From the NCBI RefSeq assembly GCF_002149035.1, contig NZ_NGFP01000061.1, positions 1-37,109 on the forward strand: a stretch of DNA of 37,109 nucleotides. Direction: 5' to 3'. The translations under genes were made by a program, and so were the position numbers. The notes below the pieces were generated by a model, which saw only the letters and a list, made by a program, of their open reading frames with translations, was not told the origin of the DNA and did not search any database. The stretch comes from Streptosporangium minutum (lineage in GTDB: Bacteria > Actinomycetota > Actinomycetes > Streptosporangiales > Streptosporangiaceae). Shown here one piece after another: positions 174 to 13,835 of the stretch (positions are counted from its first letter, which is position 1; every line of letters begins with the position of its first letter).

Positions 174-191
174 TTTGGGCCCTGACCGTAA
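174..191. promoter_or_regulatory. Half-conserved copy of the island operator
   Basis: The right arm GACCGTAA (184-191) is identical to the consensus arm of the island operator, while the left arm TTTGGGCC is poorly conserved. It lies 84 bp, about eight helical turns, upstream of the good site at 258-275, so the two may act cooperatively. Inferred from sequence similarity only. Confidence 0.4.
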
Positions 192-257
192 TTTTTTGAG
201 CATCCGCTGTCAACAGTCTTTCACTGGCTTGACGCTTGTGGATCGCAAGAAAGGCAA

Positions 258-275
258 TTATGGTCAAGACCGGTA
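258..275. promoter_or_regulatory. Island operator ahead of the amidohydrolase pair
   Basis: TTATGGTC-AA-GACCGGTA fits the palindrome TTACGGTC-NN-GACCGTAA seen at three other promoters in this window. It lies 31 bp before the chosen ATG at 307, as expected for a repressor or activator site of this operon. Confidence 0.6.
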
Positions 276-306
276 TAGAGAACTCGGAGAACGGATCGTT
301 GCCGGC

Positions 307-1062
307 ATGACAGCTTTCGACGCGGAGGGCCTGATCGGGGACCTCACGGTGACCCTCGACGTCGACGTACTCGTCGGCGCCTACCCCGACCGCGACGGCC
401 CGCCCGGCACCCCGGCCGAGGTGTGCGAGACGCTCGCCCGGCACCGGATCACGGCCGGCGCGGTGGCCGGCCTGCGCGCCGCGCTGTTCGACGTGCGCTC
501 CGGCAACGACGAGATCCTCGCGCTGGACCGTCCCGACCTGCTCCCGGTCGGCGCCGTCGACCTCCGCGACCCGGTCGGCGCGGGCGGGGAGCTGGAACGG
601 CTCGCGGGCTCCGGAGCGCGCGCGGTCCGGCTCTTCCCCGACGAGCAGGGCGTCGAGGCGGACTTCCCCTCGGTACGGCACGTCGCTCGGCGGGCCACCG
701 ACCTCGGGCTGGCCATCCTCACCGGCGGGGACGTGCGGCGCTTCTGGCGTCCTTTCGCCGGGCTCGGCGCCCGGGTGGTGTTCCTGGACACGCACTTCTA
801 CCACCTCGGCGACTTCCTCGTGACGGCCGCCGACGAGCCGGGCTTCCACACCTCCACCCGGCTGCTCAACTCCCCCGACGCGCTGGAGACCGCCGCGGGC
901 CACGTCGGCGCCGAGCGCCTGCTGTACGGCTCGCGCACCCCCCACTACGAGCCGGTCGTGCCCCTGCTGCGCCTGGCCACCAGCGGGCTCACGCCCGGCG
1001 AGGTGGCCGGCGTCGCGGGCGGCAACGCCCGCCGCCTGCTCGGCCTGGAGGCACAGTCATGA
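307..1062 (+). CDS. Amidohydrolase-fold protein lacking the metal-binding motif (possible pseudoenzyme)
   Basis: A 251-residue protein related to the amidohydrolase-2 (PF04909-like) TIM-barrel family, inferred from its layout, its C-terminal LLYGS and NARRLLGL motifs, and its pairing with a better-conserved paralogue. The N-terminal strand reads LDVDV (17-21) where active members have an HxH metal motif, and the usual barrel-end Asp is Ser209. Catalytic metal binding is therefore doubtful, and it may be a structural partner of the next protein. ATG 307 is preferred because the upstream frame runs through the operator and the inverted-repeat segment; a GGAG at 287 is rather far away, so the start is not certain. 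Its TGA overlaps the next ATG, so the two are translationally coupled. Substrate unknown. Confidence 0.75.
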   Translation: MTAFDAEGLIGDLTVTLDVDVLVGAYPDRDGPPGTPAEVCETLARHRITAGAVAGLRAALFDVRSGNDEILALDRPDLLPVGAVDLRDPVGAGGELERLAGSGARAVRLFPDEQGVEADFPSVRHVARRATDLGLAILTGGDVRRFWRPFAGLGARVVFLDTHFYHLGDFLVTAADEPGFHTSTRLLNSPDALETAAGHVGAERLLYGSRTPHYEPVVPLLRLATSGLTPGEVAGVAGGNARRLLGLEAQS

Positions 1063-1820
1063 TCATCGATGTGCACGCCCACTGGGGACCGTGGTTCTTC
1101 ACCATGGACGTGGCGGAGGTGAACCTCGCGGTCATGGACCGCTACGGCATCGACCTGGCCGTGGTGTCCGCCACCGAGGCCGTCATCTACGACGCCCCCT
1201 CCGGCAACCGGGCGCTCGCCCCCGTCCTGGAGGGCACGGCCCGGCTCTACGGCTACGTGACGGTCAACCCCAGGCGGCTCGCCGACGCCGAGCGCGACCT
1301 GCGCGAGTATCTCCCGACCGGCCGGTTCGTCGGCGCCAAGATCCACACCGACTACACCAGGTCACCTGTGACCTCCCCCCAGATGCGCGAGGCGCTGGCC
1401 ATGCTGGCCGAGCTGGGCTGCCCCGCGCTGGTGCACACCTGGGACGCCTCCGTGCTGGACCTCGCGCAGGTGTGCCTCGATCTGCCCGGCCTGCGGGCGA
1501 TCGCGGGCCACATGGGGGCGACCGGGTGGCGGCACGCGATCGAGGCGGCCCGCGCGTGCGACCGCCTCTACCTCGAACCCTGCTGGTCCCACGCGCCCGC
1601 CGGGCGGTTCGCCGAGGTCGCCGCCGCCGTCGACGCCCGCCAGCTGCTCTTCGGCACCGACGCCACGCTGATCGACCCCGCCTCCGCGTTCGGCGCGGTC
1701 GCGGCGGCCGGACTGACCGGCGAGACCGCCGAGCGGGTCGCCTGGCGCAACGCCGCCGACCTGTTCGGCCTGGAGATCCCACCCGGTCACGGCTCCCCGT
1801 CAGCTCCCCCGGAGCGGTAA
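1059..1820 (+). CDS. Amidohydrolase family protein (metal-dependent hydrolase or decarboxylase)
   Basis: A 253-residue amidohydrolase-2 family TIM-barrel protein. It begins MIIDVHAHWG, so the HxH metal pair is His6 and His8. Later barrel-end motifs are visible: KIHTDY, LVHTWD, AGHMG and LFGTD with Asp201. Family members hydrolyse C-N or C-O bonds or decarboxylate aromatic or lactone substrates in the cytoplasm. It starts on an ATGA overlap with the degenerate paralogue, suggesting a heteromer or paired function. Part of its coding sequence (1278-1360) recurs inverted at the window start. In the context of an ABC importer, aldolases and oxidoreductases under the same operator, a role in degrading an imported carbon source is inferred; the substrate is unknown. 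Confidence 0.85.
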   Translation: MIIDVHAHWGPWFFTMDVAEVNLAVMDRYGIDLAVVSATEAVIYDAPSGNRALAPVLEGTARLYGYVTVNPRRLADAERDLREYLPTGRFVGAKIHTDYTRSPVTSPQMREALAMLAELGCPALVHTWDASVLDLAQVCLDLPGLRAIAGHMGATGWRHAIEAARACDRLYLEPCWSHAPAGRFAEVAAAVDARQLLFGTDATLIDPASAFGAVAAAGLTGETAERVAWRNAADLFGLEIPPGHGSPSAPPER

Positions 1821-1868
1821 GCGGCCCGCCGGAGTCTGTCTCGGAAGCAGATCAGGCCGGAGCATGAC

Positions 1869-1970
1869 TCAGCCGTCGTCGCGGCACAGGCGGAAAGGAT
1901 GCCCAGCGGGGCCGAAGAGCACACGCACGTTCTCCTGCGATTGAACCGGCGCCACCGGGGCCGTCAACGA
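1869..1970 (-). pseudogene. 3' remnant of a VOC/glyoxalase-fold gene
   Basis: Only the last 33 or so codons can be recognised. They end in VRVLFGPAGHPFRLCRDDG and a stop, the typical C-terminal strand of VOC (glyoxalase/bleomycin-resistance) proteins. Upstream in the same frame the sequence turns into arginine/alanine-rich nonsense, so the gene is broken. It marks the left edge of a patch of gene debris between the two converging arms of the catabolic island. Confidence 0.55.
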
Positions 1971-2071
1971 GTGCCTACGACCAGTACTTTCGCAACAGGC
2001 ACTACACGCAGAGGCCGACCCGGCCCGGTCCCGCCTCCGGCGAGGGGCGGCGGGGCCACACAACACGGCAG

Positions 2072-2713
2072 TCAGCGAAGCAGTCCGGCAGCGAGGGAAT
2101 CCGCCGTGGCGACATGCGGGGCAGCCCGGTACGGCTGCCACTCCTGGCGAAGCTGCCGCAGTTCACGGTGGACGCGGGCGGAGGCGATCCCCGCGAGGTC
2201 CTCGCGGAGACTGAGCACGGTCGCAGCGGCCCGCTCAGCGTCGCCGCCGCGTAGGTGAGCATGGGCGCACCGCAGACCGATCATGGCGCGGGTACGTCGC
2301 TCCACCGGCCGTCGCGTGCTCATGGACGCGACGAAGTGCTGTGCAGCGCCGGCATGGTCGCCCAGCGCGGTGAGCGCCAGCCCTGTCTGGTGCTGCAGCG
2401 CCTCCCGCCTGTAGTTACCGACCCACTCCTCCTCGGGCGGAGAGTCGGCGTGCTCAAGCTGAGCCTCAGTGCGGCGCAGCAGCGCCAGGGCATCCCAGCG
2501 ATCAGCGACACCGGCGTGCGCCTCAGCCTGCATCCCGGTGATCCACGCCACGATACGCTGCGGACCGCAGGCACCAAGGGCGGATGCGGCAGCGTCGGCC
2601 AGGGCGAGCGCCTCCCGGTTGTGGCCGACCTCTCGGGCTTGGACCGCCATGGACCGCAGCACAGTAGCTCGCAACGCCCGGTCGCCGGCCTCGTCGGCCA
2701 GCCGGACCCGCCT
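2072..2713 (-). pseudogene. 5'-truncated TPR regulator (XRE/TPR type)
   Basis: About 210 residues of helical repeats are readable, including LADEAGDRALRATVLRSM, a style common in the C-terminal TPR part of actinomycete XRE-family regulators. The frame stays open up to about base 2713, but no N-terminal helix-turn-helix is present and no good start with a ribosome site exists; a TTG at 2674 is the only candidate. The reading frame breaks where the ATP-grasp remnant on the other strand begins. I read it as the 3' part of a regulator gene that lost its DNA-binding half. The C-terminus appears intact at the TGA at 2072. Confidence 0.6.
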
Positions 2714-2895
2714 ACCTTGATGTCTTTGGGCTGGTGTTCGGCTGTTTCGACTTCGCTCTCAGCGCCGCCGACAAGCGACCCGAAACGTGGACCTTCATCG
2801 AATGCAACCCGAACGGCCAGTGGGCTTGGTTACCTGATGCCGACGCGATGGCGCACGCCTTCGCCGATGTGATCTTGGAGGGATGGTGGTCGTGA
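2710..2895 (+). pseudogene. 3' fragment of an ATP-grasp peptide-maturation ligase
   Basis: The frame reads AYLDVFGLVFGCFDFAL and then FIECNPNGQWAWL, ending at a TGA at 2893. A C-terminal FxExNPNGQW(A/G)W block is the metal/ATP-binding signature of the ATP-grasp enzymes that modify small peptides in actinomycete ATP-grasp RiPP clusters. Only about 60 codons remain, and no upstream coding sequence continues it. Its stop overlaps the GTG of the downstream methyltransferase gene (GTGA), the arrangement expected for an original ligase-methyltransferase operon. Function is lost: the ATP-grasp N-terminal and central subdomains are missing. Confidence 0.7.
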
Positions 2896-4022
2896 GCGAC
2901 ACCGCCGCAAAGCTCCGCCACACGCTGGCGGACATCGCGGGATCCGCCGGCTGGCGTGAGGCGCTGGAGAAGGTGCCGCGTGAGCTGTTCGTCGGCGACG
3001 CCGTCTTCCTGCGCGACGCGGTCCGCGGCGACCTGTGGACAGCCGTCCGCCGCGCCGAGATGGACGAAAGCGACTGGCTGAGCCTGGTCTACACCGACGA
3101 GACGTGGGTGACCCAGGTCGACGGGGTCCTGGCCGAGGACGCTTCTGGGGCGGTGACGGGCTCGCCCAGCTCGTCATCCACCACTCCGAGTCTGGTCGTG
3201 CGGATGCTGGAGACCGCCGGCATCGGCGAGGGTGACAGGGTGCTGGAGATCGGCACCGGCACCGGCTACTCCACCGCGCTGATGTGCCGGCGCCTCGGCG
3301 ACAGTGCGGTGACCTCGATCGAGTACGACCCCGCCGTGGCCGAGCGCGCCGGCAAGGCCATCGCCATGGCTGGATACGCGCCGACTCTGGTCGTGGGTGA
3401 CGGCCTGCACGGTTACCACGACGGCGCCCCATACGACCGGCTGATCAGCACCTGCTCGGTACGGACCATTCCCCCGGCATGGACGGGGCAGGTCCGCGCC
3501 GGAAGGACCGTCACGACACCGATGTGGGGCTGGATGGGCGGGGTCGCGTTCGCGCACATCACCCTCGCCGACGACGGCAGCGCCAGTGGGCGTTTCCTCA
3601 AGGACGACCTCTACTTCATGACCGCCCGAACCCACTTGGCGCCGCCGCGGCCACCTGTCGAGACCGGCATAGGCCAGGCCCGAGAGTCCAGGATTGATCC
3701 GGCGCTCCTGGACGGCGACGCCGCCCTGTTCGTCGCCCAGCTCGCCGCGCCGACCGCCCAGCGGGCCACGATTGGCGACATGACGATCCTGTTGGACGTC
3801 GGCACCGGATCACGGGCCGACACCCGGCCCGACCCGGCCGGAGGGTGGACGGTCCACCAGCACGGCCCGCTACGACTCTGGGACGCGGTCGAGGACGCCA
3901 TCTTGACCTGGCATGCGGCCGGGTCGCCGCACCAGTCCTCGTTCGGGCTCACCGTCACCGGGGACCGCCAGTACGTCTGGCTGGGCGAACCGGACGGCCC
4001 ATCTTGGGATCTGCCCGCCTGA
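2892..4022 (+). CDS. PCMT-like methyltransferase of ATP-grasp peptide maturation type
   Basis: A 376-residue SAM-dependent methyltransferase of the protein-L-isoaspartate methyltransferase superfamily. The serine/threonine stretch SSSTTPSLVVRMLE (93-106) precedes the SAM-binding strand and loop VLEIGTGTGYST (117 onward). A C-terminal domain of about 150 residues is typical of the versions paired with ATP-grasp RiPP ligases. GTG 2892 is preferred because it overlaps the ligase stop and lies about 10 bp after GGAGG; ATG 2883 and GTG 2886 are in frame but close to that site. With the ligase truncated and no precursor peptide visible, it is probably an orphan, although its frame is intact. The assignment to the ATP-grasp system rests on the adjacent ligase remnant and overall layout. 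Confidence 0.8.
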   Translation: MSDTAAKLRHTLADIAGSAGWREALEKVPRELFVGDAVFLRDAVRGDLWTAVRRAEMDESDWLSLVYTDETWVTQVDGVLAEDASGAVTGSPSSSSTTPSLVVRMLETAGIGEGDRVLEIGTGTGYSTALMCRRLGDSAVTSIEYDPAVAERAGKAIAMAGYAPTLVVGDGLHGYHDGAPYDRLISTCSVRTIPPAWTGQVRAGRTVTTPMWGWMGGVAFAHITLADDGSASGRFLKDDLYFMTARTHLAPPRPPVETGIGQARESRIDPALLDGDAALFVAQLAAPTAQRATIGDMTILLDVGTGSRADTRPDPAGGWTVHQHGPLRLWDAVEDAILTWHAAGSPHQSSFGLTVTGDRQYVWLGEPDGPSWDLPA

Positions 4023-4064
4023 GCGGCGTTCCGGCAGCTCAGCGGCGTGACGAAGTGATCAGTT

Positions 4065-4093
4065 CGCCCCTGGTGTCTCCCTATGAAGGGGCG
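4065..4093. terminator. Hairpin between the convergent methyltransferase and aldolase genes
   Basis: CGCCCCT (4065-4071) pairs with AGGGGCG (4087-4093) across a 15-base loop, in the 89-bp gap between two converging genes. There is no T-tract. Placement suggests a bidirectional terminator. Confidence 0.4.
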
Positions 4094-4111
4094 GGGCATT
4101 CCCGACCGGCC

Positions 4112-5179
4112 TCAGGAGATCCGGGCGGGCCCGGTCGCGAAGGCCGCCAGGAGTGCCCGGTCCTCCGCCAGGTCAGGGCCGTACGGGTCGTGGGCGTGGC
4201 TGTCCGGGATCCGTCCCTCGGCGGCGGCCAGCCAGAGCATGCGCTGGACGTAGCCCTCCATCGGCTCGGTGAAGGTCGCGGCGGCCAGCCGGTCGAGCCG
4301 CGCGGACGCCCGTTCGAACGCGCGCAGGTCGGAGCCGGCGAAGGCGGTCATCACCTCCGCCGTGACCTCCACCGCCGCCGCCGCGATGCCCACCAGGGCG
4401 GCCTCGGCCCCCCACAGCAGCGACGGGCCGAACATCCGGTCCTCGCCGGTGATGGGGAGCCTGCCCGCCGCTCGGGTGACGGCGATCGCCTCCTGGCAGC
4501 CCATCGCGTCCGACAGCAGCGCCGTCTTCAGCCCCGCCACGCCGGGGTGGCGCACCAGCCGGCGCAGGACGCCGGGCGGGTAGGGCTTGACGTAGAGGTC
4601 GAAGGCGATCATCGGCAGGCCGGTCGAGCGCCAGATCGCGTCGTGGGCGGCCCAGGGGTCGTCGGTGGGGAAGACCATGACGGCGTCCGCGCCGAGGCCG
4701 GCCGCGACCCGGGCCTCGGCCACCATCCGGTCGACGGCCCCACCGGCGTGCCCCGCCGTACCGGACGGACCTGCCGCATCGGACGGGCCCGCCACATCGG
4801 ACAGGCCCGCCGTACCGGACGGCCTCGCCGTACCGGACGGGCTTCCCGCACCGGATAGGCCCGCCGTACCGGACAAGCGTGCCGGGCCGGATGTGTCTCC
4901 CGTACCGGGTGAGCCGCCGACGCCCACGATCACCGGCACGCCCGTCGCGACGGCCCTGGTGATCAGGCCCGCGCGGACCTCCGGGGCGAGGAAGGGGCCG
5001 CGCCCGGTGTGCGCGAGCACGGCCAGGCCGTCGGCCCCGTCGGCGACCAGGCCCGCCAGGTAGTCGCCGGCCAGGTCGAGGTCCACCTCTCCGGCCGCGG
5101 TCATGGGGGTGGCCGCCGCCGCTACCAGGGTACCGCCCAGCCGGTCGCGCAGCTTCGCCGCCCGTGAGTCGATGTCCAT
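4112..5179 (-). CDS. DHDPS-superfamily aldolase/lyase with a hexapeptide-repeat insert
   Basis: A 355-residue (beta/alpha)8 protein of the dihydrodipicolinate synthase / N-acetylneuraminate lyase superfamily. The predicted Schiff-base lysine is Lys218 in GVAGLKTALL. A tyrosine in AFDLYVKPY fits the position of the family's catalytic tyrosine. The usual G-T-T-G loop is replaced by AHTGRG, so this is not housekeeping DapA. Residues 97-144 are eight imperfect SGTAGL-type hexapeptides inserted after the strand PVIVGVGG; without them the length matches the family. It is the last gene of the ABC importer operon, 9 bp after the second permease, so its substrate is probably derived from the imported compound. 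Likely reaction: aldol cleavage or dehydration of a 2-keto acid (inference). Confidence 0.85.
   Translation of the reverse strand: MDIDSRAAKLRDRLGGTLVAAAATPMTAAGEVDLDLAGDYLAGLVADGADGLAVLAHTGRGPFLAPEVRAGLITRAVATGVPVIVGVGGSPGTGDTSGPARLSGTAGLSGAGSPSGTARPSGTAGLSDVAGPSDAAGPSGTAGHAGGAVDRMVAEARVAAGLGADAVMVFPTDDPWAAHDAIWRSTGLPMIAFDLYVKPYPPGVLRRLVRHPGVAGLKTALLSDAMGCQEAIAVTRAAGRLPITGEDRMFGPSLLWGAEAALVGIAAAAVEVTAEVMTAFAGSDLRAFERASARLDRLAAATFTEPMEGYVQRMLWLAAAEGRIPDSHAHDPYGPDLAEDRALLAAFATGPARIS
4748..4891. repeat. In-frame 18-bp minisatellite, eight units, inside the aldolase gene
   Basis: Eight consecutive 18-bp units encode, in gene order, SGPARL, SGTAGL, SGAGSP, SGTARP, SGTAGL, SDVAGP, SDAAGP and SGTAGH. 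The period is exact, so copy-number change by slippage would keep the frame. Units differ by several bases, which suggests the array is not very recent. Confidence 0.92.
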
Positions 5180-5188
5180 CCGGCGAGC

Positions 5189-6058
5189 CTATTTCAGGCC
5201 GGTCATGGCGATGCTGTTGACCAGGTAGCGCTGGAGCAGGGCGAAGACGAGCAGGCAGGGCAGCACCGAGATCGTCGCGGAGGCCATCAGCACGGCCAGC
5301 GGGACCTCCTCGCCCCGCAGCGTGGTCAGGCCGACCGTCAGCGTGCGCAGCGCGTCGCCCTGCGCGGCGACGAGCGGCCACAGGAAGTCGTTCCAGTGCC
5401 ACAGGAAGACGAAGACCCCCAGCGTGGCGAGGATCGGCTTGGTGAGCGGCACGACGATCCGCCAGTAGACCAGCCACTCGGAGGCGCCGTCCACCCGGGC
5501 CGCGTCGAACAGCTCGTCCGGCAGGTCCTTGATGAACTGGCGCATCAGGAAGACGGCCTGGGAGTTTGCGAGCGTGGGGACGATCAGACCCCAGTAGGTG
5601 TCGATCCCGCCCAGGTCGGAGACCAGCACGAACGTCGGGATCAGCGTGGCCTGGAAGGGCACCATCATCGTCGCCAGGAAGACCCACAGCAGGGCGTCCC
5701 GGCCGGGGAAGCGCTTCTTGGCGAAGGCGTAGCCGGCCATCGACGCCGTGATCAGGATGATCACCACGGAGACGAGCGCGTAGATCAGCGAGTTCATCGT
5801 CCATCCGATGAACCCGGAGGCCGACAGCGTCCGCACGAGGTTGTCGAAGGTCAGCTCGGAGGGCCACTGCGCGGGCACCGTCGGGCTGCTCGCGGGCGAG
5901 AGCGCCACCACGAGCATCACCAGGAACGGGCTGACCGTGAGGATCGAGACCAGGCCGAGCAGGACCGTCAGCGGCCACTTCCCGAACGTACGGCGCGGCG
6001 CGGGGGCCGCCGCCTTCTTCTTCTCCGTGGTGGTGGGGCGGGAAGCGGTGATCGTCAT
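5189..6058 (-). CDS. ABC transporter permease, carbohydrate type (MalG-like)
   Basis: A 289-residue inner-membrane permease of the carbohydrate-uptake ABC family. A short charged N-terminus is followed by a first membrane segment (about 30-50) and five more. The cytoplasmic EAA loop is DAARVDGASEWLVYWRIVVP, where the shared ATPase docks. The MalG-like terminus ends in NSIAMTGLK. Its ATG overlaps the stop of the upstream permease (ATGA), and the aldolase gene follows after 9 bp. No ATPase gene is present in the island; actinomycetes commonly use one shared MsiK-type ATPase for many such importers, which is assumed here. Confidence 0.93.
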   Translation of the reverse strand: MTITASRPTTTEKKKAAAPAPRRTFGKWPLTVLLGLVSILTVSPFLVMLVVALSPASSPTVPAQWPSELTFDNLVRTLSASGFIGWTMNSLIYALVSVVIILITASMAGYAFAKKRFPGRDALLWVFLATMMVPFQATLIPTFVLVSDLGGIDTYWGLIVPTLANSQAVFLMRQFIKDLPDELFDAARVDGASEWLVYWRIVVPLTKPILATLGVFVFLWHWNDFLWPLVAAQGDALRTLTVGLTTLRGEEVPLAVLMASATISVLPCLLVFALLQRYLVNSIAMTGLK

Positions 6059-6921
6059 GAGGTCCCCCGGTCGAGCAGGCGGCGCTGGACCAGCGAGACG
6101 ATCAGGACCATCGCGAACAGCACCATGCCCAGGGTCGCCGCGTAGCCGAAGTCGAAGAACTTGAAGCCCTGTTCGTAGAGGCCGTAGATGAGGGTGTAGC
6201 TGGCCCGGGCCGGGCCCCCTCCGGTCATCACGTAGATGGTGTCGAAGGTCTGGAAGGCCCCGATGGTCTCGATGATCAGGACGAAGAACAGGGCGGGCCG
6301 CAGCAGCGGCAGCGTGATCCGGCGGAAGCGCTGCCAGGCGCTGGCCCCGTCGACACGGGCCGCCTCCAGGTAGGAGCCGGGGATGGACTTCAGGCCGGCG
6401 AGCAGGATCAGCATGGAGTAGCCGAACCCCTTCCAGACCGAGACCACCGCCAGGGCGGGCAGCACCAGCGAGGACTGCTCCAGGAATCCGACCGGGCCCA
6501 GGTCCACCTTGGCCAGCAGCCCGTTCAGCAGGCCGTCGAACTCGTAGATCCAGCGCCAGATCACCCCGGCCAGCACGAAGCTCGTCACGTAGGGCAGGAA
6601 CAGCATCCCGCGGAACAGCCCCTTCGCGTAGATCGCCGCGTTGAGCATCAGGGCGGTGCCGAGGGAGACCAGCATGGTCAGCGGGACGTAGATCGCCACG
6701 TAGAGCAGCGTGGTACGCAGGCTGGCCAGGAAGAGCGGATCGTCCAGGAGCCTGGCGTAGTTGTCGACCCCGACGAAGCTCCACTCTCCGCTGACCTTGT
6801 AGTCCGTCAGGCTCATGCCCGCCGCCCCCAGCGTGGGGGCGATTCGGAAGATCAGGAAGAGCACCAGCATCGGCAGGACGAACAGCAGCCCCGTCATGGG
6901 ATCTCGCAACCGCTGTCGCAC
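6055..6921 (-). CDS. ABC transporter permease, carbohydrate type (MalF-like)
   Basis: A 288-residue membrane permease with six predicted transmembrane segments, the first at about residues 8-30. The EAA loop reads EAARVDGASAWQRFRRITLP. The start is GTG 6921, with AGGTG about 8 bp upstream; ATG 6897 is an alternative. It is the second gene of the importer operon, 65 bp after the binding-protein gene, and that gap contains a strong stem-loop. It overlaps the second permease by four bases. Heterodimer with the next gene product is expected. Confidence 0.93.
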   Translation of the reverse strand: MRQRLRDPMTGLLFVLPMLVLFLIFRIAPTLGAAGMSLTDYKVSGEWSFVGVDNYARLLDDPLFLASLRTTLLYVAIYVPLTMLVSLGTALMLNAAIYAKGLFRGMLFLPYVTSFVLAGVIWRWIYEFDGLLNGLLAKVDLGPVGFLEQSSLVLPALAVVSVWKGFGYSMLILLAGLKSIPGSYLEAARVDGASAWQRFRRITLPLLRPALFFVLIIETIGAFQTFDTIYVMTGGGPARASYTLIYGLYEQGFKFFDFGYAATLGMVLFAMVLIVSLVQRRLLDRGTS

Positions 6922-6944
6922 AGGGTCACACCTCTCAGTCGGAC

Positions 6945-6973: not shown

Positions 6974-6986
6974 ATGCATGGTTGGC

Positions 6987-8234
6987 TCAGCCGCTGGCCA
7001 GCAGCGTGTTGGCCTCCTGGGCGGCCGCGTCAAGGGCCTTCTTCGCGTCCTCCTTGCCGAGCAGTGCCGCCTGGATGTGCGGTGCGATCAGCGCCATCAC
7101 CTGCCGGGCCTTGGGGTGGGTGTCGCCGGGGAAGGCGAACTCCAGCGACTTGGCGAACTCCGTGGCCTCCGGCGTCTGCCCCGGCACGGTCGCGTCGGTG
7201 CGCGCGGGGAAGAAGCCGGACTCCTTGGCGAGGTCGGCCGCCACCTCGGGCGAGGAGAGATACTCGGCGAACTTCCTGGCCTCGGCCTGCCGGGAGGAGT
7301 GCTTGGCCAGTACCAGCCCGCCGGGGATGCCGAACGCCACGCGCTTGCTGCCCTCCAGCGGCAGCCCGATCCCGACGTTCTCGGCGCCGATCGCGGCGCC
7401 GAGCTGGACCGCCTGGAGCGCGGTCGCCGCGTGGTACATGGCGGTCTTGCCGGCCGCCAGCGGGCCGCCCTCGATCTCGTTGGTCTTGGTCGCGGCGTTC
7501 TCGGGGATCCCGCCGACGGCCTTGAGGTCGAGGAGGAGCTGCAGGGCCGCCACGCCCTCAGGGCCGTTGAAGGCGACGGACTTGCCGTCCTGGGCGAACA
7601 CGCTGCCGCCGTTGGACCACAGCAGCGGGTAGAAGCTCTGGTTGAGGCTGATCTCGGGAGCCCCCGGGTAGTCCAGGACGGCGATCTTCTTGGCCGCCAG
7701 CTTGGGCGCGGCCTCCTTGAGCCCGGCCCAGGTGCCGGGCACCTCGGTGACCCCGGCGTCGGCGAAGGCCTTCTTGTTGTAGATCGGCGCCGTGATCGTC
7801 TGGTAGATCGGCACGCCGTACAGCGCGCCGTCCACCGTCAGGGCGTTCAGCGCCGCGGGCAGGTAGGCCGACTTGGCGGGGGCCACCAGATCGTCGAGTG
7901 CGACGAGCGAGCCCTGCTGGGCGTACTGCGGGATCTGGTCGGGGCCGAGGACGACCAGGTCGAAGCCCTTCTTGGCGGCCAGGGCCGTCGTGACCTTCTC
8001 CTGGCGGCCCTCCCAGGGCTGCAGGTCGATCTTGAGGTCGATGGTGGCGTTCGCCGCCTCGAAGTCCTTCTCGACCTTGCCCCAGAACGCCTGGCTCTTG
8101 GCCTGGTCGGAGATGACGGGGTACATCCACATGGTGACCGTGCTCTTGCCCGACCCGGAGTCGGAGCCGGATCCACATCCGGCGAGCACGACTCCCAGGG
8201 CGGCCGCGAGGCCGGCTGCGGCGACCTTCCTCAT
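6987..8234 (-). CDS. ABC transporter extracellular solute-binding lipoprotein
   Basis: A 415-residue family-1 (sugar-type) solute-binding protein. The N-terminus has a positively charged start, a hydrophobic stretch and the lipobox VLAGC, so Cys20 is the lipidated residue and the protein is anchored outside the membrane. The mature protein starts with a GSGSDSGSGK linker. MWMYPVISDQAKSQ and YGVPIYQTITAPIYNKKAF are family-like blocks. First gene of the importer operon; an island operator lies 27 bp upstream of its ATG, so it is probably induced by the pathway substrate or an intermediate. The ligand cannot be read from sequence; sugars, sugar acids or oligosaccharides are typical. Confidence 0.93.
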   Translation of the reverse strand: MRKVAAAGLAAALGVVLAGCGSGSDSGSGKSTVTMWMYPVISDQAKSQAFWGKVEKDFEAANATIDLKIDLQPWEGRQEKVTTALAAKKGFDLVVLGPDQIPQYAQQGSLVALDDLVAPAKSAYLPAALNALTVDGALYGVPIYQTITAPIYNKKAFADAGVTEVPGTWAGLKEAAPKLAAKKIAVLDYPGAPEISLNQSFYPLLWSNGGSVFAQDGKSVAFNGPEGVAALQLLLDLKAVGGIPENAATKTNEIEGGPLAAGKTAMYHAATALQAVQLGAAIGAENVGIGLPLEGSKRVAFGIPGGLVLAKHSSRQAEARKFAEYLSSPEVAADLAKESGFFPARTDATVPGQTPEATEFAKSLEFAFPGDTHPKARQVMALIAPHIQAALLGKEDAKKALDAAAQEANTLLASG

Positions 8235-8260
8235 CGGCGCCTTCCTTTCCTTTTTGCTAA

Positions 8261-8278
8261 TACCGGTCTAGACCGAAA
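8261..8278. promoter_or_regulatory. Island operator ahead of the importer operon
   Basis: TACCGGTC-TA-GACCGAAA contains the perfect 12-bp palindrome CGGTCTAGACCG and matches the consensus TTACGGTC-NN-GACCGTAA. It lies in the gap between the binding-protein gene (starting at 8234) and the aminotransferase stop at 8358. The core GGTCTAGACC also resembles HutC-type GntR sites such as the DasR element. Confidence 0.75.
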
Positions 8279-8357
8279 CCTAGTCACCTGGTTAAAGGCG
8301 GGTCAATGCCTGAAATACGAACGTAACTAACCGCCAAGGCCGGTACCCGATAAGTGA

Positions 8358-9509
8358 TCATCGACCGAACCCGGCGGCCACCGCGTCGACGTGCTCGTCG
8401 GTGTAGTGCTCGTTCCAGTCGATGACCAGCAGGTTCTCCGCGACCAGGCGTTCGGCCTCGGGACACGGCGCGGGCGGGCCGTCCAGCGGGAAGCGCGAGG
8501 TGCCGTAGACGGGCCCGTCCCACACCGGGGCCCGGTTGAGCGGCTCGGCCAGGTAACCGGCCCTGGCGGGGATCCCGGCACCGGCCAGCCGCTCGGCCAG
8601 CTCCGGGGCTCCCCCGCCGGGCAGCACCAGCGGGAACAGCCACCAGGCATGCCCCTCGGGATCCGGCAGGCAGACCCCGTCCAGCCCGTCCAGAGCCTTC
8701 AGCAGCCGCGCGGCGGTGCGCCTGCGGGCCTCGACCACCCAGGGCAGCTTCACGAGCTGGGCACGGGCGACCGCCGCCTGCAGCTCGGTCATGCGGTAGT
8801 TGAGCCCGAAGCTCACATGATGGCGGCCGACGGCCCTGTCCCAGCCCTTGTCGGCGAAGAGACGCATCGTGTGGGCCAGCCGGTCGTCGTCGGTGATCAC
8901 CAGGCCGCCGTCGCCGCAGGTGATGTGCTTCCACTGCTGGAGGCTGAAGCAGCCGACCTGCCCCACCGTGCCGACCGGGCGCCCGCCGGGCGACGTCGCC
9001 AGCCACGCCTGGGCGCAGTCCTCGATCAGCGCCAGGCCGTGCTCGTCGGCCAGGGCACGCAGCTCGGCCGTCCGGGCCGGGGCCCCGAACAGGTGGACGG
9101 CCATGATCGCACGGGTGCGCGGGCCGATGAGCGCCGCCACCGCGTCCGGATCGAGATTCCCGGTCTCCGGATCGACGTCTGCGAAGACAGGGACGGCGTT
9201 CTGCGCCAAGATAGGGGCCACCGTGCCGAAGTCGGTCAGCGGGGTCGTGATGATCTCGTCTCCGGGGTCGGGCGCGGCGGCCACGACGGCCAGATGGAGG
9301 GCCGCGGTGCCGGAGCTGCAGGCGATGGCGTGGCGGGAGCCGTACAGCTCCGCCATCTCACGCTCCAGCGCTCGCGCCTCGGTCCCCCACACGGAGCTGA
9401 GCATCCCGGAACGGATCACCCGCTCCGCGGCGGCGACCTCCTCGTCGCCGAGTGTCCGTCCGTCCGGTCCGGCCATGCTGGGAAATGTCAGAGCCAACGA
9501 GCACCTCAC
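8358..9509 (-). CDS. DegT/DnrJ/EryC1/StrS family PLP-dependent aminotransferase
   Basis: A fold-type I PLP enzyme of up to 383 residues in the sugar aminotransferase family. The predicted PLP lysine is Lys194 in SLQQWKHITCGDGG, matching the family's S(F/L)...K..T.G(E/D)GG block. EDCAQA contains the PLP-ring aspartate, and ACSSGTAAL is the phosphate-binding turn. Family members transaminate keto-sugars, or dehydrate or epimerise them. Start is either GTG 9509 or TTG 9497; the TTG has AGGTG at a good distance. It is divergent from the regulator gene with one operator between them. In this island it suggests an amino or keto group on a sugar-like substrate. Confidence 0.88.
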   Translation of the reverse strand: MRCSLALTFPSMAGPDGRTLGDEEVAAAERVIRSGMLSSVWGTEARALEREMAELYGSRHAIACSSGTAALHLAVVAAAPDPGDEIITTPLTDFGTVAPILAQNAVPVFADVDPETGNLDPDAVAALIGPRTRAIMAVHLFGAPARTAELRALADEHGLALIEDCAQAWLATSPGGRPVGTVGQVGCFSLQQWKHITCGDGGLVITDDDRLAHTMRLFADKGWDRAVGRHHVSFGLNYRMTELQAAVARAQLVKLPWVVEARRRTAARLLKALDGLDGVCLPDPEGHAWWLFPLVLPGGGAPELAERLAGAGIPARAGYLAEPLNRAPVWDGPVYGTSRFPLDGPPAPCPEAERLVAENLLVIDWNEHYTDEHVDAVAAGFGR

Positions 9510-9530
9510 AAAAGGTAGAGTCAGACCATA

Positions 9531-9548
9531 AAGCGGTCTTGACCGTAA
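9531..9548. promoter_or_regulatory. Island operator between aminotransferase and regulator genes
   Basis: AAGCGGTC-TT-GACCGTAA lies in the 59-bp divergent gap and so can control both the aminotransferase (-) and the regulator (+). An extra half-site, GACCATAA, lies at 9523-9530. The position suggests autoregulation. Confidence 0.7.
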
Positions 9549-9568
9549 TAGGGAACGGAGAGGCCTGG

Positions 9569-10774
9569 GTGGGCATCGTCATCGGAGTCGTCGGCCCCCA
9601 TGATCTGGTTGACGAGGTGGCCGCCACCTGTGAGGAGCAGCTCGGGGTGAGCGCCTTGCGGCTGGACTACGACCACGAGTCGCAGGCGCCCGCGATCGTG
9701 GAGGCCCACGCCGCGTCGGTCGAGGGATGGCTCTTCACCGGCATCGTGCCCTACATGCTGGCACGCGACGCCGACGTGCTGTCGCGGCCGGCCTCCTTCG
9801 TGGACTACTCCGGCGCCACCCTGCTCAGCGCCCTCGTCCGCCTCCAGCACGAGGGACAGGACGTGACCCGGCTGTCCATCGACACCCTGGCCTCCGCCGA
9901 CATCGTGACGACCTTCGCCGAGGCGGGCCTGCCCACCGAGGACATCCGGACCCTCCCCTACCGCCAGGGGATGAGCTCGAAGAAGGCTGTCGCGTTCCAC
10001 CGCCGGGGCGGGGGACACGCCGTGGTCACCTGCCTCAGCTCGGTCCACGAGGCGCTGCGCGGGGAGATGCACGTGCTGCGCCTGGTCCCGTCGGTCCACT
10101 CGGTCCGCGTCGCCCTGCGCCAGCTCCTGCAGTCGGCCGAGGGGCAGGCCCAGGAGGACGCGCAGATCGCGCTCGGGCTGATCGAGGTGGAGAGCGAGGA
10201 GGGTCTGCTGCGCGAGGCCACCGCGCTGGGCGGCACGCTGGCCGCCTTCCGCGGCGGCACGCATCTGCTCGTCACCACGCGCGGCCCGCTCTCCGACGCG
10301 ACGGGGGGCTTCTCCTCGCTGCCCATGCTGTCGCGCCTGGCGAGCCACAACCAGGTCGTGCGGGTGGGGTTCGGGCTGGGGCGCAGCGCGGCGGAGGCCG
10401 AGAGCCTGGCACGCCGCGCCCTCGCCCGCGCCCGCCGCATCGGCGAGGTGGCCGCGGTGCTGTCGCTCCGTGCCGACACCGACATCGTGCTCGAATCGGT
10501 CACCGCCGCGCCGGCGGGCGGCAAGAACCTCAACGTGATCGCGCGCCGGGTGGGGCTGTCGGTCCCGACGCTGGAGAGGTTGATCGAGGCCCGGGCCGCC
10601 GTGGGCGACGAGCCGCTCACCACCCGCGAGATCGCCGAGCGCCTGGGGGTGCAGCAGCGGACGGCCCGCCGGATGCTGCACCGCCTGGAGCTGTCGGGGC
10701 TCGCCGAGCGCACCGGCAACCTTTCCAGCGGTTCGAGCGGCCGCCCGCTGACGATGTACCGGCTGACCCTCTAG
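9569..10774 (+). CDS. Transcriptional regulator with C-terminal winged HTH and GGDEF-like central region
   Basis: A 401-residue protein. Residues 1-170 resemble a Rossmann-like ligand-sensing domain (MGIVIGVVGPHDLVDEVA; VEGWLFTGIVPYML). Residues of about 190-310 have a weak GGDEF/nucleotidyl-cyclase-like pattern ending VGFGLGRSAAEAESLARRAL, but no GGDEF signature, so catalysis is unlikely. The C-terminus (about 325-401) has two helix-turn-helix-like segments, NVIARRVGLSVPTLERLI and TTREIAERLGVQQRTARRML, plus a wing. GTG 9569 is chosen because it follows ACGGAGAGG at a proper distance and leaves the operator outside the gene. It is the only regulator in the island and the best candidate to bind the shared operator. 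The family is not one I can name firmly. Confidence 0.8.
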   Translation: MGIVIGVVGPHDLVDEVAATCEEQLGVSALRLDYDHESQAPAIVEAHAASVEGWLFTGIVPYMLARDADVLSRPASFVDYSGATLLSALVRLQHEGQDVTRLSIDTLASADIVTTFAEAGLPTEDIRTLPYRQGMSSKKAVAFHRRGGGHAVVTCLSSVHEALRGEMHVLRLVPSVHSVRVALRQLLQSAEGQAQEDAQIALGLIEVESEEGLLREATALGGTLAAFRGGTHLLVTTRGPLSDATGGFSSLPMLSRLASHNQVVRVGFGLGRSAAEAESLARRALARARRIGEVAAVLSLRADTDIVLESVTAAPAGGKNLNVIARRVGLSVPTLERLIEARAAVGDEPLTTREIAERLGVQQRTARRMLHRLELSGLAERTGNLSSGSSGRPLTMYRLTL

Positions 10775-11826
10775 CCCAGCCACCGGCCGAGACCCTCGGC
10801 GACGAAGTCGTCGTCACGCAGCCAGGGGTAGGCGGCCCAGATCCGGTCGATCTCGGCGAGCTGGCCCGGGGACAGGTCCTCGGCCGGGTCCAGGCACCAG
10901 CGCCCGGCGAGCAGGCCCTGGCGCCGGAGCACCTCGTGGATGCCGGGGATGCAGCCGTGGAAGCCGCCGGCCACGTCGAAGATGGCCGCGTTCGCGTCGG
11001 TGAGGTGGCCGTCGAGGGTCAGCAGGCGCCGCACGGCCACGTCGTCGCCGGCGCGGGCGCGCTTCGCCTCCTCCAGCAGCTCGACCGCGCGCCGCACCCA
11101 GACCGCCCACTGGCCCAGCAGCCCGCCGACGAACTCCAGCTCGACCTCGCGGCCGTCGACGACGACCCGGTGAGGGGTGATGAGGTCGGCGAGGATGTGG
11201 TCGTCGTTGCCCGTGTAGAGCGCGACCTCGCCCTCCCGGCCCGCGCGGCAGACGCCGTGCAGGACGTCCAGCGTCCGGTAGCGGTCGAAGGGCGCCACCT
11301 TGATCCCGACCACCGAGTCGATCGCGGCCAGCTCCGTCCAGAAGTTCCGGGACAGCTGCCTGCCGCCCACCGCGGGCTGGAGGTAGAAGCCGATGACGGG
11401 GAGGACCTCCCCCACCGCGCGCGCCCGTTCGATCAGCTCGTCCTCGTCGAGTCCCCGGGCGGGGCTGAGCAGGACCATGTGGTAGCCGAGCGACGCGGCC
11501 AGCTCGGCCTCGGCCACGGCCTGGGCGGTGGGGCCGGTGGCCCCGGCCACGAGGAGCACCTCCCGGTCGTACTCGCGGGCGGTCTCGGCCGCCAGTTCGA
11601 GCACCGGGGGCAGCAGCGGGGTGCCGTGGATGGCGAACTGCGTCGTGTGCACCCCGACGGCCAGTCCGCCCGCCCCCGCCTCGATGTAGTAGCGGGTCAG
11701 CGCCCGCTGGCGCCGCTCGTCCAGCCGGCGCTCGCCGGTCAGCGCCAGCGGGTGGGCCGGGATCACACATCCCCGCCGGAACAGATCATGTACGGACGCG
11801 TGCGTCCCAGGTGCCGTGCTCAGCAC
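10771..11826 (-). CDS. DHDPS-superfamily aldolase-like protein (second paralogue)
   Basis: A 351-residue (beta/alpha)8 protein related to dihydrodipicolinate synthase. The predicted Schiff-base lysine is Lys176 in VVGIKVAPF, and the tyrosine in VIGFYLQPAVGG fits the catalytic tyrosine position. The GTT loop reads VGVHTTQF, and a C-terminal extension of about 90 residues follows the core. It is far from the aldolase at 4112-5179, so the two are unlikely to be isozymes. The start is GTG 11826, which follows GAGGGGGATGG; the open frame continues upstream but would overlap the epimerase gene. It lies 16 bp behind that gene, forming a two-gene unit. Its stop shares CTAG with the stop of the convergent regulator gene. 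Confidence 0.82.
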   Translation of the reverse strand: MLSTAPGTHASVHDLFRRGCVIPAHPLALTGERRLDERRQRALTRYYIEAGAGGLAVGVHTTQFAIHGTPLLPPVLELAAETAREYDREVLLVAGATGPTAQAVAEAELAASLGYHMVLLSPARGLDEDELIERARAVGEVLPVIGFYLQPAVGGRQLSRNFWTELAAIDSVVGIKVAPFDRYRTLDVLHGVCRAGREGEVALYTGNDDHILADLITPHRVVVDGREVELEFVGGLLGQWAVWVRRAVELLEEAKRARAGDDVAVRRLLTLDGHLTDANAAIFDVAGGFHGCIPGIHEVLRRQGLLAGRWCLDPAEDLSPGQLAEIDRIWAAYPWLRDDDFVAEGLGRWLG

Positions 11827-11842
11827 GTGCCATCCCCCTCGA

Positions 11843-12859
11843 TTAGAACTTGCCGTCACGACGCTCGAACTTGGTGGGCTTTCCGAGGAGCGGCCCGCCA
11901 TCGGCCACCCATCGCGCCGTGTGCCCGATAAGCTCGGTGAGCGTGAGATCCGGGTAGCCGAACAGCCCGTGGCAGCGCGCGGCGTTGGACAGCAGCGCCG
12001 TCGGGGCCTCCTCGCCGGTGAACACCGGCCGCCTGCCGAGAGCCTCGCCGAGGGCCTCCGCCGCCTGCCGTACCGAGACCAGCTCGGGGCCGGTGACGTT
12101 GAGGACGTACGGCTCGGCGCCGGCCAGCGGCAGCGAGCGGAGCGTGACCTCGTTGGCGTAGCCCTGCCAGACGACGTTGACCTGTCCGGTCGTCAGGTCG
12201 ATCGGCTGGTCCGCCAGGATCCTCTGCGCGAGGTCGACGAGCACGCCGTAGCGCATCTCGACCGCGTAGTTGAGCCGGATCAGCGACAGCGGCGTGCCGT
12301 ACTCGGCCGCGAAGTGCGTGAGCACCCGCTCCCTGCCCAGACAGCTCATCGCGTAGTCGCCCACCGGGCCGGTGGGGCCGTCCTCGGTGCTGCCGCCGCT
12401 CGCGACCGGCACCAGGGGGTAGACGTTGCCCGTGGACAGCGCCGCGATCCTGCTGCCGCGGAACCGGTCGGCCACCCGTCCCGGCAGGTAGGTGTTGGTG
12501 AACCAGGTCGCGTGCTCGCGCCCGGCGGTGCCGAACTTGGCGCCGACCAGGAAGACCACGTTCGCGGCGTCGGGCAGGCCGCGCAGCGCCTCCTCGTCGG
12601 CGACGTCGGCCGCCACCACCGTGGCGCCGCTCTCCTGGAGAGACTGCGCCAGCCCGGGCTCGGAGAACCGCGACACCGCGATCACCCGCCGGGGCACCCC
12701 CGACGCCCGCACACCGCGCAGCGCCAGGCGCACCAGGCTCGGTCCCAGCTTGCCGCCGGCCCCAAGGATCATGATGTCGCCGTCGAGCTTGCCCAGATCG
12801 TCGGCGAGCCCGTCACGCGGTCGTGACAGCCGCTCGTCCAGTTCCGCCAGCGTGCGCAT
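11843..12859 (-). CDS. Extended-SDR NAD-dependent epimerase/dehydratase-like protein
   Basis: A 338-residue Rossmann protein. The nucleotide-binding loop is GAGGKLG (about 33-39), AADVAD follows the usual acidic-residue position, and LSTGNVYP carries the catalytic Ser/Thr region. The catalytic YxxxK is Tyr169 followed by Cys173 (YAMSC), so the general lysine is replaced by cysteine. The enzyme may therefore bind NAD without normal SDR chemistry or use another base. ATG 12859 has a perfect AAGGAGG upstream, and an island operator lies 20 bp before it. The DHDPS-like gene follows. Expected role: oxidation, epimerisation or dehydration of a sugar-like intermediate (inference). Confidence 0.85.
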   Translation of the reverse strand: MRTLAELDERLSRPRDGLADDLGKLDGDIMILGAGGKLGPSLVRLALRGVRASGVPRRVIAVSRFSEPGLAQSLQESGATVVAADVADEEALRGLPDAANVVFLVGAKFGTAGREHATWFTNTYLPGRVADRFRGSRIAALSTGNVYPLVPVASGGSTEDGPTGPVGDYAMSCLGRERVLTHFAAEYGTPLSLIRLNYAVEMRYGVLVDLAQRILADQPIDLTTGQVNVVWQGYANEVTLRSLPLAGAEPYVLNVTGPELVSVRQAAEALGEALGRRPVFTGEEAPTALLSNAARCHGLFGYPDLTLTELIGHTARWVADGGPLLGKPTKFERRDGKF

Positions 12860-12878
12860 CCGGCCTCCTTGTTCTCAT

Positions 12879-12896
12879 TTACGGTCCAGACCGTAA
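12879..12896. promoter_or_regulatory. Island operator, best-conserved copy
   Basis: TTACGGTC-CA-GACCGTAA has perfect 8-base inverted arms around a 2-base spacer, 20 bp upstream of the epimerase ATG and downstream of the Gfo/Idh/MocA stop. It was used as the reference for the consensus. Confidence 0.8.
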
Positions 12897-12935
12897 CTTC
12901 GACAGGCTCCGGATGTCAATGGGCGCGGCGCGGCG

Positions 12936-13835
12936 TCAGCTCGGCGGGACGGCCTCGCGCGCCGAGATCAGCACGTCGAGGATGGCGCGGGTCTGCTCCC
13001 ACGGGACGGGACTGGGCGCTCCCCCGACCATGGCGAGGAACGCCTCGATCGTGCCCTCGTAGCCGAGGCCCCGCAGCACGTCGTCCCCGCCCTGGATCAC
13101 GATCGTCTCGGCGGCGTCGCGGGTGTGGACGGTCACCGTGTAGGACTCCTCCTCGGTGACCCCGAGGATCTCGACGGTGCCGGGGACGCCGTTCCCCCAC
13201 TGCAGCGCCATGACGCCGGTGTCCTCCGAGCGGAGCGAGCCGTAGTGACGGGTCGCCCCCGCCGCGCCGACGAGCCGTACGTCGGGGCCGAGCAGGGCGA
13301 CGAGCAGTTCCACGCCGTGGATGCCCATCGTCACCATCGTGCCGCCCCCCTCGGCCGGATCGTCCTGCCAGGGGTTGTAGCCGGTGGCCCAGAGGCCCAC
13401 GTCGTGCCGGACCGTCGCCCGGACCGCCAGGACCTCCGCGGGGTCGACCCTCCGGCCCGCGAACCCGGGGGCGAAACGGAGCACCGAGCCGGACATCACC
13501 CGCTCGGCGACCGGCGCGATCAGCGCGTCCAGCTCCCGCAGCCCCGCGCGGGTGGCGGCGGCCGGCTTGTTGACGAAACAGGGCGCCCCCGCCTCCAGGA
13601 CCGGCCCCAGCGCCTCCGCCGTCCGCGGCGTGGGCACCGTGAGGACGACGCCGTCGGGCTCGGCCGCCAGGAGCTCCTTCAGGGTGGGGACCACGGTGGC
13701 CGCCGAGTGTTCCTCGGCGAAGCGCGCCAGCCGGACGGCGTCCTCCTCCCACACCACCAGTTCGGCGCGGCGGGCGACGGTACGGGCGTCGGTGAAGGGG
13801 TGGCTGGTGGCCAGGCCGGCGAATGCGATGCGCAC
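12936..13835 (-). CDS. Gfo/Idh/MocA family NAD(P)-dependent oxidoreductase
   Basis: A 299-residue protein. The N-terminal Rossmann fold starts MRIAFAGLATSHPF. The family EKP motif appears as VNKP (in CFVNKPAAA), keeping the catalytic lysine but changing the acidic residue. The C-terminal sheet domain includes GGGTMVTMGIHGVELL with the conserved histidine. The family oxidises or reduces sugars, inositols and related polyols. The start is GTG 13835, after AGGAGG; a longer upstream frame has no ribosome site. It lies upstream of the epimerase/aldolase unit in the same direction, separated by 76 bp containing an operator, so it could be read through or separately expressed. Confidence 0.85.
   Translation of the reverse strand: MRIAFAGLATSHPFTDARTVARRAELVVWEEDAVRLARFAEEHSAATVVPTLKELLAAEPDGVVLTVPTPRTAEALGPVLEAGAPCFVNKPAAATRAGLRELDALIAPVAERVMSGSVLRFAPGFAGRRVDPAEVLAVRATVRHDVGLWATGYNPWQDDPAEGGGTMVTMGIHGVELLVALLGPDVRLVGAAGATRHYGSLRSEDTGVMALQWGNGVPGTVEILGVTEEESYTVTVHTRDAAETIVIQGGDDVLRGLGYEGTIEAFLAMVGGAPSPVPWEQTRAILDVLISAREAVPPS

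Follow-up and report, generated by a model that had tools for sequence, protein, structure and literature searches.

At positions 174 to 13,835 of a 37,109-nucleotide (nt) stretch of Streptosporangium minutum DNA (contig NZ_NGFP01000061.1; 'the window' hereafter means this whole stretch), genes of catabolic appearance lie among copies of an inverted repeat. Does one operator control these genes, and if so, which protein reads it and which compound is degraded? The operator and the genes form a real, conserved, single-operator regulon, as an earlier note on this DNA had proposed and as conserved sites across relatives support. In addition, we think it fairly probable that most of a single catabolic island, conserved in soil actinomycetes, lies in the window, repressed by the product of a gene designated REG and directed at a glycan-derived, probably amino-sugar-like compound. 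The results computed here concern operator conservation, operator position relative to a conserved -35 sequence, co-occurrence of REG and operator, gene co-conservation and domain folds.

Genes were assigned by coding analysis and with Pfam and NCBIfam profiles. From left to right, their order is AH1-AH2 (+, amidohydrolase fold), a methyltransferase gene, DHDPS1-perm2-perm1-SBP (-, a DHDPS-superfamily enzyme and an ABC importer whose solute-binding protein is named SBP), DegT (-, aminotransferase), REG (+), DHDPS2-SDR (-) and GFO (-, Gfo/Idh/MocA oxidoreductase). The ABC operon is read from SBP, and the DHDPS2-SDR pair from SDR. All gene types named in the earlier note (two amidohydrolase-fold proteins, an ABC SBP with two permeases, two DHDPS proteins, DegT, SDR and Gfo/Idh/MocA) are present about where it had placed them, but its list omitted the probable regulator REG (9569-10774 +).

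The operator pattern is an 18-bp inverted repeat, TTACGGTC-NN-GACCGTAA, plus close variants. Five such sites with at most 3 mismatches were seen in the window, compared to 0.04 expected, and none of 100 shuffles reached five; they are not due to chance. The claim that several transcription units share this palindrome holds in that the sites are real, but the exact palindrome occurs only at 12879..12896 (TTACGGTCCAGACCGTAA), 19 nt 5' of the SDR start and over the putative SDR -10. The other four have 3 mismatches each: 174..191 (TTTGGGCCCTGACCGTAA); 258..275 (TTATGGTCAAGACCGGTA), 31 nt 5' of the AH1 start; 8261..8278 (TACCGGTCTAGACCGAAA), 5' of SBP and adjoining a putative TTGACC..TAGGTT promoter; and 9531..9548 (AAGCGGTCTTGACCGTAA), between DegT (-) and REG (+), 20 nt 5' of the REG start. 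Site 174 had been described as a weaker half-copy, which it is not: it equals 258, 8261 and 9531 in mismatches, in Streptosporangium canum its equivalent separates AH1 from a divergent beta-propeller gene, which the present genome carries on contig C191, and orthologous sites are found 5' of AH1 in Nonomuraea too. Site 258 is likewise the same site in S. canum (L158:18230; L, C and G designate our loci, contigs and genomes). An operator-like match at C157:51561 was set aside because it lies inside a gene that reads, by eye, like dnaK; another, at C227:6571, lies about 60 nt 5' of a function-unassigned gene (L071 3835-5013).

Is this arrangement conserved? A search with REG, taking one genome per species, yielded at least 53 loci, from S. 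canum (98%), 29 Nonomuraea, Sinosporangium, Pseudonocardia, Actinophytocola, Micromonospora, Rugosimonospora, Plantactinospora and Virgisporangium. The best operator match was taken from 300 bp upstream to 30 bp inside each gene, the window included. Orthologous sites, including those of the 174 type, are kept in Streptosporangium, Nonomuraea, Pseudonocardia and Micromonospora relatives. Among 43 regions upstream of SDR, 31 had no mismatch, 8 had one and 3 had two; the sole miss (6 mismatches, L090) is a partial match at a contig edge. Upstream of REG, a site with at most 3 mismatches was found in 48 of 53 loci, with 4 mismatches in L108 and worse matches in L106, L107, L117 and L121 (L123 was left out as too short). 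For SBP (n = 39), 36 regions had 3 mismatches, two had 4 and one had 7; this last (L098) reflects a paralogue chosen by the script, and a 3-mismatch site lies near the orthologous SBP there. Only 3 of 37 GFO regions had a site with at most 2 mismatches, so that GFO is counted in the regulon by its position only. Nothing better than 6 mismatches was found upstream of DHDPS1 (n = 41); upstream of DHDPS2, one of 44 regions had a perfect site (L077, without an SDR match), and the rest had 5 mismatches or more. As controls, the reversed pattern never did better than 5 mismatches in the SDR, REG, SBP and AH1 sets, and single-base shuffles reached 4 once (SBP set) and 3 once (GFO set). The variants are position-specific: most SBP sites read TTTCGGTC-NN-GACCGGTA, and TTT-x-GGCCC-x-GACCGTAA, the form of site 174, is common among AH1 sites. 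DHDPS2 adjoins REG in 43 of the 53 loci, and the stretch ends at or just past REG in 3 of the other 10 (L109, L112, L124). The conserved co-occurrence in other actinomycetes, named in the earlier note as the point to check, is borne out by such figures.

The sites also hold a constant position relative to promoter-like sequences. TTGAC is found 5' of the SDR operator in all 42 regions, at 17 nt in 40 and at 16 nt in 2. The operator start would supply the SDR -10 (TACGGT, spaced by about 18 and weak as a -10 sequence). In the SBP set, TTGAC lies 5' of the operator in 33 of 38 regions, at a distance of 21-23 nt in 31 and of 34 nt in 2, and the operator is mostly edged by TAGGTT. Because the site sits on the putative SDR -10, about 20 nt before the start codon, this layout suggests that control through the operator is repression. 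No operator site with at most 3 mismatches was found near the SDR start in SDR loci without a close REG (L059-L067, L135-L142); the single 3-mismatch match in L136 lies on the other side of SDR.

Which protein would read the operator? Co-occurrence was analyzed in 150 genomes of the family, that of the window included, with REG scored at E <= 1e-60 and the operator at 1 mismatch or less. REG was present in 18 genomes and the operator in 22. The operator was found in 16 of the 18 REG genomes, compared to 6 of the 132 without REG (one site each; Fisher P = 8e-15), and perfect copies in 13 of 18 compared to 0 of 132. The reversed-pattern control matched one genome of 150 (G206). One cluster (L147, in G377) has sites with 0, 3 and 3 mismatches and no REG in the 19.9 kb fetched; REG lies elsewhere in that genome. 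Among REG orthologues at 40 to 45% identity (L007 from P. equi, L055 and L145), the operator is kept in all three loci. At up to 3 mismatches it was absent from the seven loci with REG relatives at 28 to 31% (L130-L134, L143, L144) and from L009 (24%); in L008 (26%) the only match, with 3 mismatches, is distant from REG. L055 and L145 retain the REG helix VQQRTARRML wholly or nearly so; it has changed more in P. equi, and the four distant relatives aligned have an altered form. From sequence comparison, REG is probably the cognate regulator of the operator.

REG (9569..10774, +), the putative repressor, comprises a PrpR_N-like part (residues 1-196), a cyclase/GGDEF-like part (199-311) and a winged helix-turn-helix (HTH; 317-400). 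Its AlphaFold2 model, based on 26 sequences, had a pLDDT of 86.8 and a pTM of 0.58. With VIA-align, residues 1-194 matched the NtrC-family regulator domain 2q5c (Z 17.4, root-mean-square deviation (rmsd) 2.9, 184 residues) and PrpR 2pju (Z 15.9, rmsd 2.6, 179 residues). Residues 199-303 align to GTP cyclohydrolase III and 198-315 to cyclases and GGDEF domains (2qv6: Z 10.5, rmsd 2.7, 98 residues). Winged HTH proteins were the matches of residues 317-399 (6cmv: Z 9.2, rmsd 2.8, 81 residues). The best 25 of 30 Pfam matches were all C-terminal, with the best stretches within 316-383. They included neither the PrpR_N profile PF06506 nor an AAA+ sigma-54 activation domain, residues 199-311 and 317-399 having cyclase-like and winged HTH folds. 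NCBIfam gave an excisionase-type HTH domain just over cut-off and weak HTH matches. The GntR HTH profile PF00392 scored 18.8 bits on residues 336-382, below its cut-off of 27, so that REG does not qualify as GntR/HutC by this profile. Judging by the model, this architecture is probably a so far unlabelled repressor type. Related genes occur elsewhere. In the same genome, a second, divergent REG-family gene has its own amidohydrolase pair (L143 568-9907, on contig C523), in a locus that also holds heparinase II/III, BadF-family kinase, SIS and AraC genes. A third (L144 3935-7794, on C531) lies between EPSP-synthase-family and EamA transporter genes, with no island genes around it. In L052 and L056, tandem REG paralogues (46-51%) adjoin propeller genes, with the related inverted repeats TAACGGTCGCTACCGTAA and TTACGGTAGCGACCGTTA near the propellers, which makes a sister regulon possible.

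We then come to what the regulated genes encode. AH1 (307..1062, +; PF04909, 36.6 bits) carries D18-x-D20-x-L22, residues found in 41 of 41 sequences; both histidines of the DxHxH metal motif are replaced, so that AH1 lacks this metal site. It is perhaps a partner subunit of AH2 (1059..1820, +; Amidohydro_2, PF04909, 88.6 bits versus 26.4), which overlaps it by 4 bp and has its metal-site residues H6, H8, H126, H151 and D201 in 50 of 50. The importer is of CUT1 type by its SBP_bac_1 protein and two permeases: SBP (6987..8234, -; sugar-type; PF01547, 127.8 bits; PF13416, 130.4 bits), perm1 (6055..6921, -; UgpA/GlcT/MalF-like by profile) and perm2 (5189..6058, -; UgpE/GlcU/MalG-like by PF00528 and NCBIfam), both sugar-type permeases. 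No ATPase gene was seen in the island. DHDPS1 (4112..5179, -; PF00701, 43.1 bits versus 22.1), at the end of this operon, has K218, the Schiff-base lysine by family knowledge, in 20 of 20. DegT (8358..9476, -) is a DegT/DnrJ/EryC1/StrS aminotransferase (PF01041, 300.2 bits versus 19.8) with its pyridoxal phosphate lysine K183 in 58 of 58.

The DHDPS2-SDR pair is more divergent. DHDPS2 (10771..11826, -; PF00701, 26.2 bits versus 22.1) has K176, at the Schiff-base position by family knowledge, in 69 of 69 sequences and Y148 in 67 of 69. It scored 15.7 bits on the NCBIfam N-acetylneuraminate lyase model, whose cut-off is 281, and does not qualify for that family by score. SDR (11843..12859, -; epimerase-type, PF01370, 35.9 bits versus 20.9) has a GxxGxxG motif, Tyr169 and Cys173. 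In 68 sequences from several phyla (67 distinct), G33, G36, G39 and Y169 are invariant, and the place of the YxxxK lysine (173) is taken by Cys in 66 sequences and by Val in 2. Because this position lacks the lysine of the catalytic pair, SDR may not be an ordinary dehydrogenase. Searches of solved-structure sequences with DHDPS2, SDR, DHDPS1, REG, DegT and one propeller gave no functional assignment; the only matches of SDR were TerB oxidoreductase entries (E about 1e-8). SDR relatives in viral contigs were looked for, and none was found. GFO (12936..13835, -; PF22725, PF02894) is a Gfo/Idh/MocA oxidoreductase with an NKP motif (K90).

The island does not stop at the contig end. Most of it falls within the span first proposed, but it extends about 11.5 kb further left, on contig C191, and the methyltransferase gene at 2883-4022 (of the ATP-grasp peptide maturase kind; TIGR04188, 406 bits versus 380) looks foreign to it. 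In many Nonomuraea loci, a propeller gene occupies the methyltransferase position. Left of AH1, S. canum contig C58 has four tandem-propeller genes, a second DegT (DegTb) and a second amidohydrolase pair (AH2b, fam7). C191 (12,378 bases) matches this stretch at 96 to 98% and ends about 20 bases from the first matching base of the window. On C191, one propeller gene is preceded by a perfect operator and another by a site with 3 mismatches; the site of a fifth propeller gene, on C135, has 2. A third amidohydrolase pair, next to REG-like and heparinase II/III genes on C523, is built like the two island pairs: one protein has DxHxH and the other has lost the second or both histidines. The propeller N-termini are signal-like by eye, the family model has a pLDDT of 89.8, and Pfam matches are mostly to generic propellers, one member carrying CBM_4_9. 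REG, the propellers, the second DegT/amidohydrolase module and the odd active sites of SDR and AH1 all go beyond the earlier note. Window positions 1-86 are an inverted copy (85/86) of positions 1275-1360 within AH2, probably produced artificially by snap-back where the contig ends. To the right of the island, a gene at 14016-15737 (-) encodes a protein that we take to be like a nitric oxide synthase oxygenase domain; it had no NCBIfam match at 1e-10.

What might the island do? DNA binding, repression, the ligand, the glycan, its amino-sugar nature and all enzymatic steps are inferred, as follows. REG would bind the 18-bp repeat and its variants. Repression is its likeliest mode of action, given that the putative -10 of the SDR/DHDPS2 promoter is covered by the site and that of the ABC/DHDPS1 promoter adjoins it; operators before AH1/AH2, DegT, REG itself and the propeller genes on C191 and C135 would add these to the regulon, with autoregulation of REG. 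A small-molecule intermediate in the PrpR_N-like domain would lift repression. The tandem-propeller proteins would bind or cut an extracellular glycan, and the SBP/permease system would import the released product. The amidohydrolase pairs, each with one intact and one degenerate metal site, could, with the DegT enzymes, take off N-acyl and amino groups; oxidation state or stereochemistry could be altered by Gfo/Idh/MocA and SDR; and the two DHDPS-superfamily enzymes could split or dehydrate the resulting keto acid.

The substrate may be approached through the neighbours of relatives in other genomes. Mesobacillus foraminis has a propeller relative (E 4e-156) close to SDR and DHDPS2; another, with a CBM_4_9 domain, lies near SDR/DHDPS2 and a sugar ABC system in Paenibacillus cellulositrophicus (E 1e-112), and a propeller shares its locus with these same genes in Streptomyces atratus. 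In the haloarchaeon Natribaculum longum, a propeller-family protein adjoins a sugar ABC importer, a GH109-like oxidoreductase, GH20, GH123 and a creatininase-family protein. In L135, genes of the glucosamine-isomerase/6-phosphogluconolactonase and GlcNAc-2-epimerase families lie beside SDR-DHDPS2 and a propeller, and in L143, BadF-family kinase and SIS-domain genes lie beside the divergent REG and amidohydrolase pair of the same genome. Because of the Natribaculum and L135 neighbours, this analogy favours N-acetylated amino sugars, and an amino-sugar-type glycan product appears the likeliest substrate class. Of the amino- or keto-sugar-like compound proposed at first, it is the amino-sugar part that gains indirect support, from Natribaculum, L135 and L143. 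A narrower version, which we regard as doubtful, is that the substrate is a two-amino sugar (a 2,4-diamino-2,4,6-trideoxy sugar or the corresponding nonulosonic acid, as in the bacillosamine, legionaminic or pseudaminic types). It would be released by secreted tandem-propeller proteins forming a new glycan-active family, either module of DegT and amidohydrolase pair would take off one of its acylated amino groups, and its carbon skeleton would be cleaved by DHDPS-type enzymes, all under a not-yet-described repressor family. The earlier note knew of no named pathway with this gene set. In agreement with this, no matching pathway appeared in the literature searched at the level of titles and abstract openings, most subscription journals lying outside it, for the gene set or for Pse/Leg/bacillosamine catabolism. 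Within the same scope, nothing fitting was found for the operator half-sites, for PrpR + GGDEF + winged helix, or for a Streptosporangium/Nonomuraea regulon.

It is possible, if on the unlikely side, that the same regulated island serves another substrate, such as a uronic acid, a cyclitol or an amino-acid-linked sugar acid, with a keto-sugar as the substrate of DegT and lactonase activity in the amidohydrolase-fold proteins. Amidohydro_2 indeed includes sugar lactonases. Further points in favour are the heparinase II/III gene next to the related amidohydrolase pair and divergent REG of this genome, the genes for an M20 peptidase and a serine ammonia-lyase in P. equi, and, in S. atratus and Glaciihabitans, the closeness of a hydroxyacid dehydrogenase gene to DHDPS2. 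These points are opposed by the GH20/GH123/GH109-like neighbours of the haloarchaeal propeller, by the amino-sugar-family neighbours in L135 and by the presence of two DegT genes in the whole island. Another reading is a biosynthetic island in which DegT, SDR and Gfo/Idh/MocA make an amino sugar to decorate a product or wall polymer, with recycling through the transporter: the best profiles of both DegT proteins are the PseC, ArnB and LegC transaminases, all far below curated cut-offs. A sugar importer, propellers with signal-like N-termini and two DHDPS-fold enzymes argue against this, no glycosyltransferase or nucleotidyltransferase was found among the island genes scanned, and we hold biosynthesis to be highly improbable. 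There is even less reason to credit a GntR/HutC-type regulator of the DasR kind, encoded elsewhere and with REG merely a target; the inner GGTC-NN-GACC does resemble the DasR site (TGGTCTAGACCA), but REG presence predicts the operator genome by genome, and the operator lies about 20 nt 5' of REG in most loci.

Several results weigh against a REG-repressed island for an amino-sugar-like glycan product. Upstream of AH1, at most 3 mismatches were found in just 18 of 29 regions and 4 in 2 of 29 (3 regions were left out as too short); the 9 worse regions are all loci with AH1 downstream of DegT in the same direction. With Nonomuraea making up 29 of the 53 REG loci, the counts are non-independent, although the Micromonospora, Pseudonocardia and Actinophytocola sites are concordant despite this weighting. 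No -35-like TTGAC precedes the REG operator in 48 regions. Two of the 18 REG genomes (G298 and G319) had no operator at 1 mismatch or less, and three REG loci without island genes (L106, L117, L121) had no operator site. As for the glycan, no glycosidase was found among the island genes scanned, and the best 50 rows of the propeller fold search held only generic (tandem) propellers, including the Bacteroides two-component sensors 3ott and 4a2l. P. equi keeps REG, SDR, DHDPS2, DHDPS1, GFO and the operator; its 31 kb fetched gave no DegT, amidohydrolase, SBP, permease or propeller match at E 1e-3, and the M20 peptidase, MFS transporter and serine ammonia-lyase genes of this locus fit an amino-sugar glycan poorly. 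By annotation, SDR-DHDPS2 loci of other phyla lie beside other ABC or tripartite transporters. An Arthrobacter propeller locus had, by annotation, no island genes.

The regulon ties an unlabelled regulator architecture to a defined operator, which makes discovery of the ligand and pathway testable in culturable strains such as S. canum. It also links to sugar import a widespread function-unassigned pair (an SDR without catalytic lysine and a divergent DHDPS), as well as a tandem-propeller family that reaches from actinomycetes to a haloarchaeon. Any one assignment, of the regulator, the SDR-DHDPS2 pair or the propeller family, would annotate many genomes.

How does the island compare with known systems? 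Sialic acid catabolism proceeds through NanA, NanE, NagA and NagB, with a DHDPS-fold lyase among amino-sugar genes. The island resembles it in its DHDPS-fold protein and in the amino-sugar-family genes beside SDR-DHDPS2 in L135; DegT, SDR and the amidohydrolase pairs, however, have no place there, and DHDPS2 falls below the N-acetylneuraminate lyase cut-off. The non-phosphorylated L-fucose and L-rhamnose pathways use an Amidohydro_2 lactonase and a DHDPS-type aldolase, and the island shares with them a dehydrogenase, an Amidohydro_2 protein, a DHDPS-fold enzyme and a sugar importer; in place of a sugar-acid dehydratase, of which none was found among the island genes scanned, it has DegT and amidohydrolase pairs. 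The dre site of DasR/NagR (GntR-HutC), which has a palindromic GGTC-NN-GACC core and controls sugar uptake, is matched by the operator in this core and in the putative control of sugar uptake, but the outer half-sites are TTAC/GTAA here and REG scores below the GntR cut-off. Finally, residues 1-196 of the REG model match the fold of the N-terminal domain of PrpR, the sigma-54 propionate regulator (2pju), and of 2q5c. The literature on PrpR_N/PF06506, at the level of titles and abstract openings, includes sigma-54 regulons in Clostridiales; in REG, unlike PrpR, the PrpR_N-like part is followed by a cyclase/GGDEF-like domain and then a winged HTH, instead of a sigma-54 activator domain.

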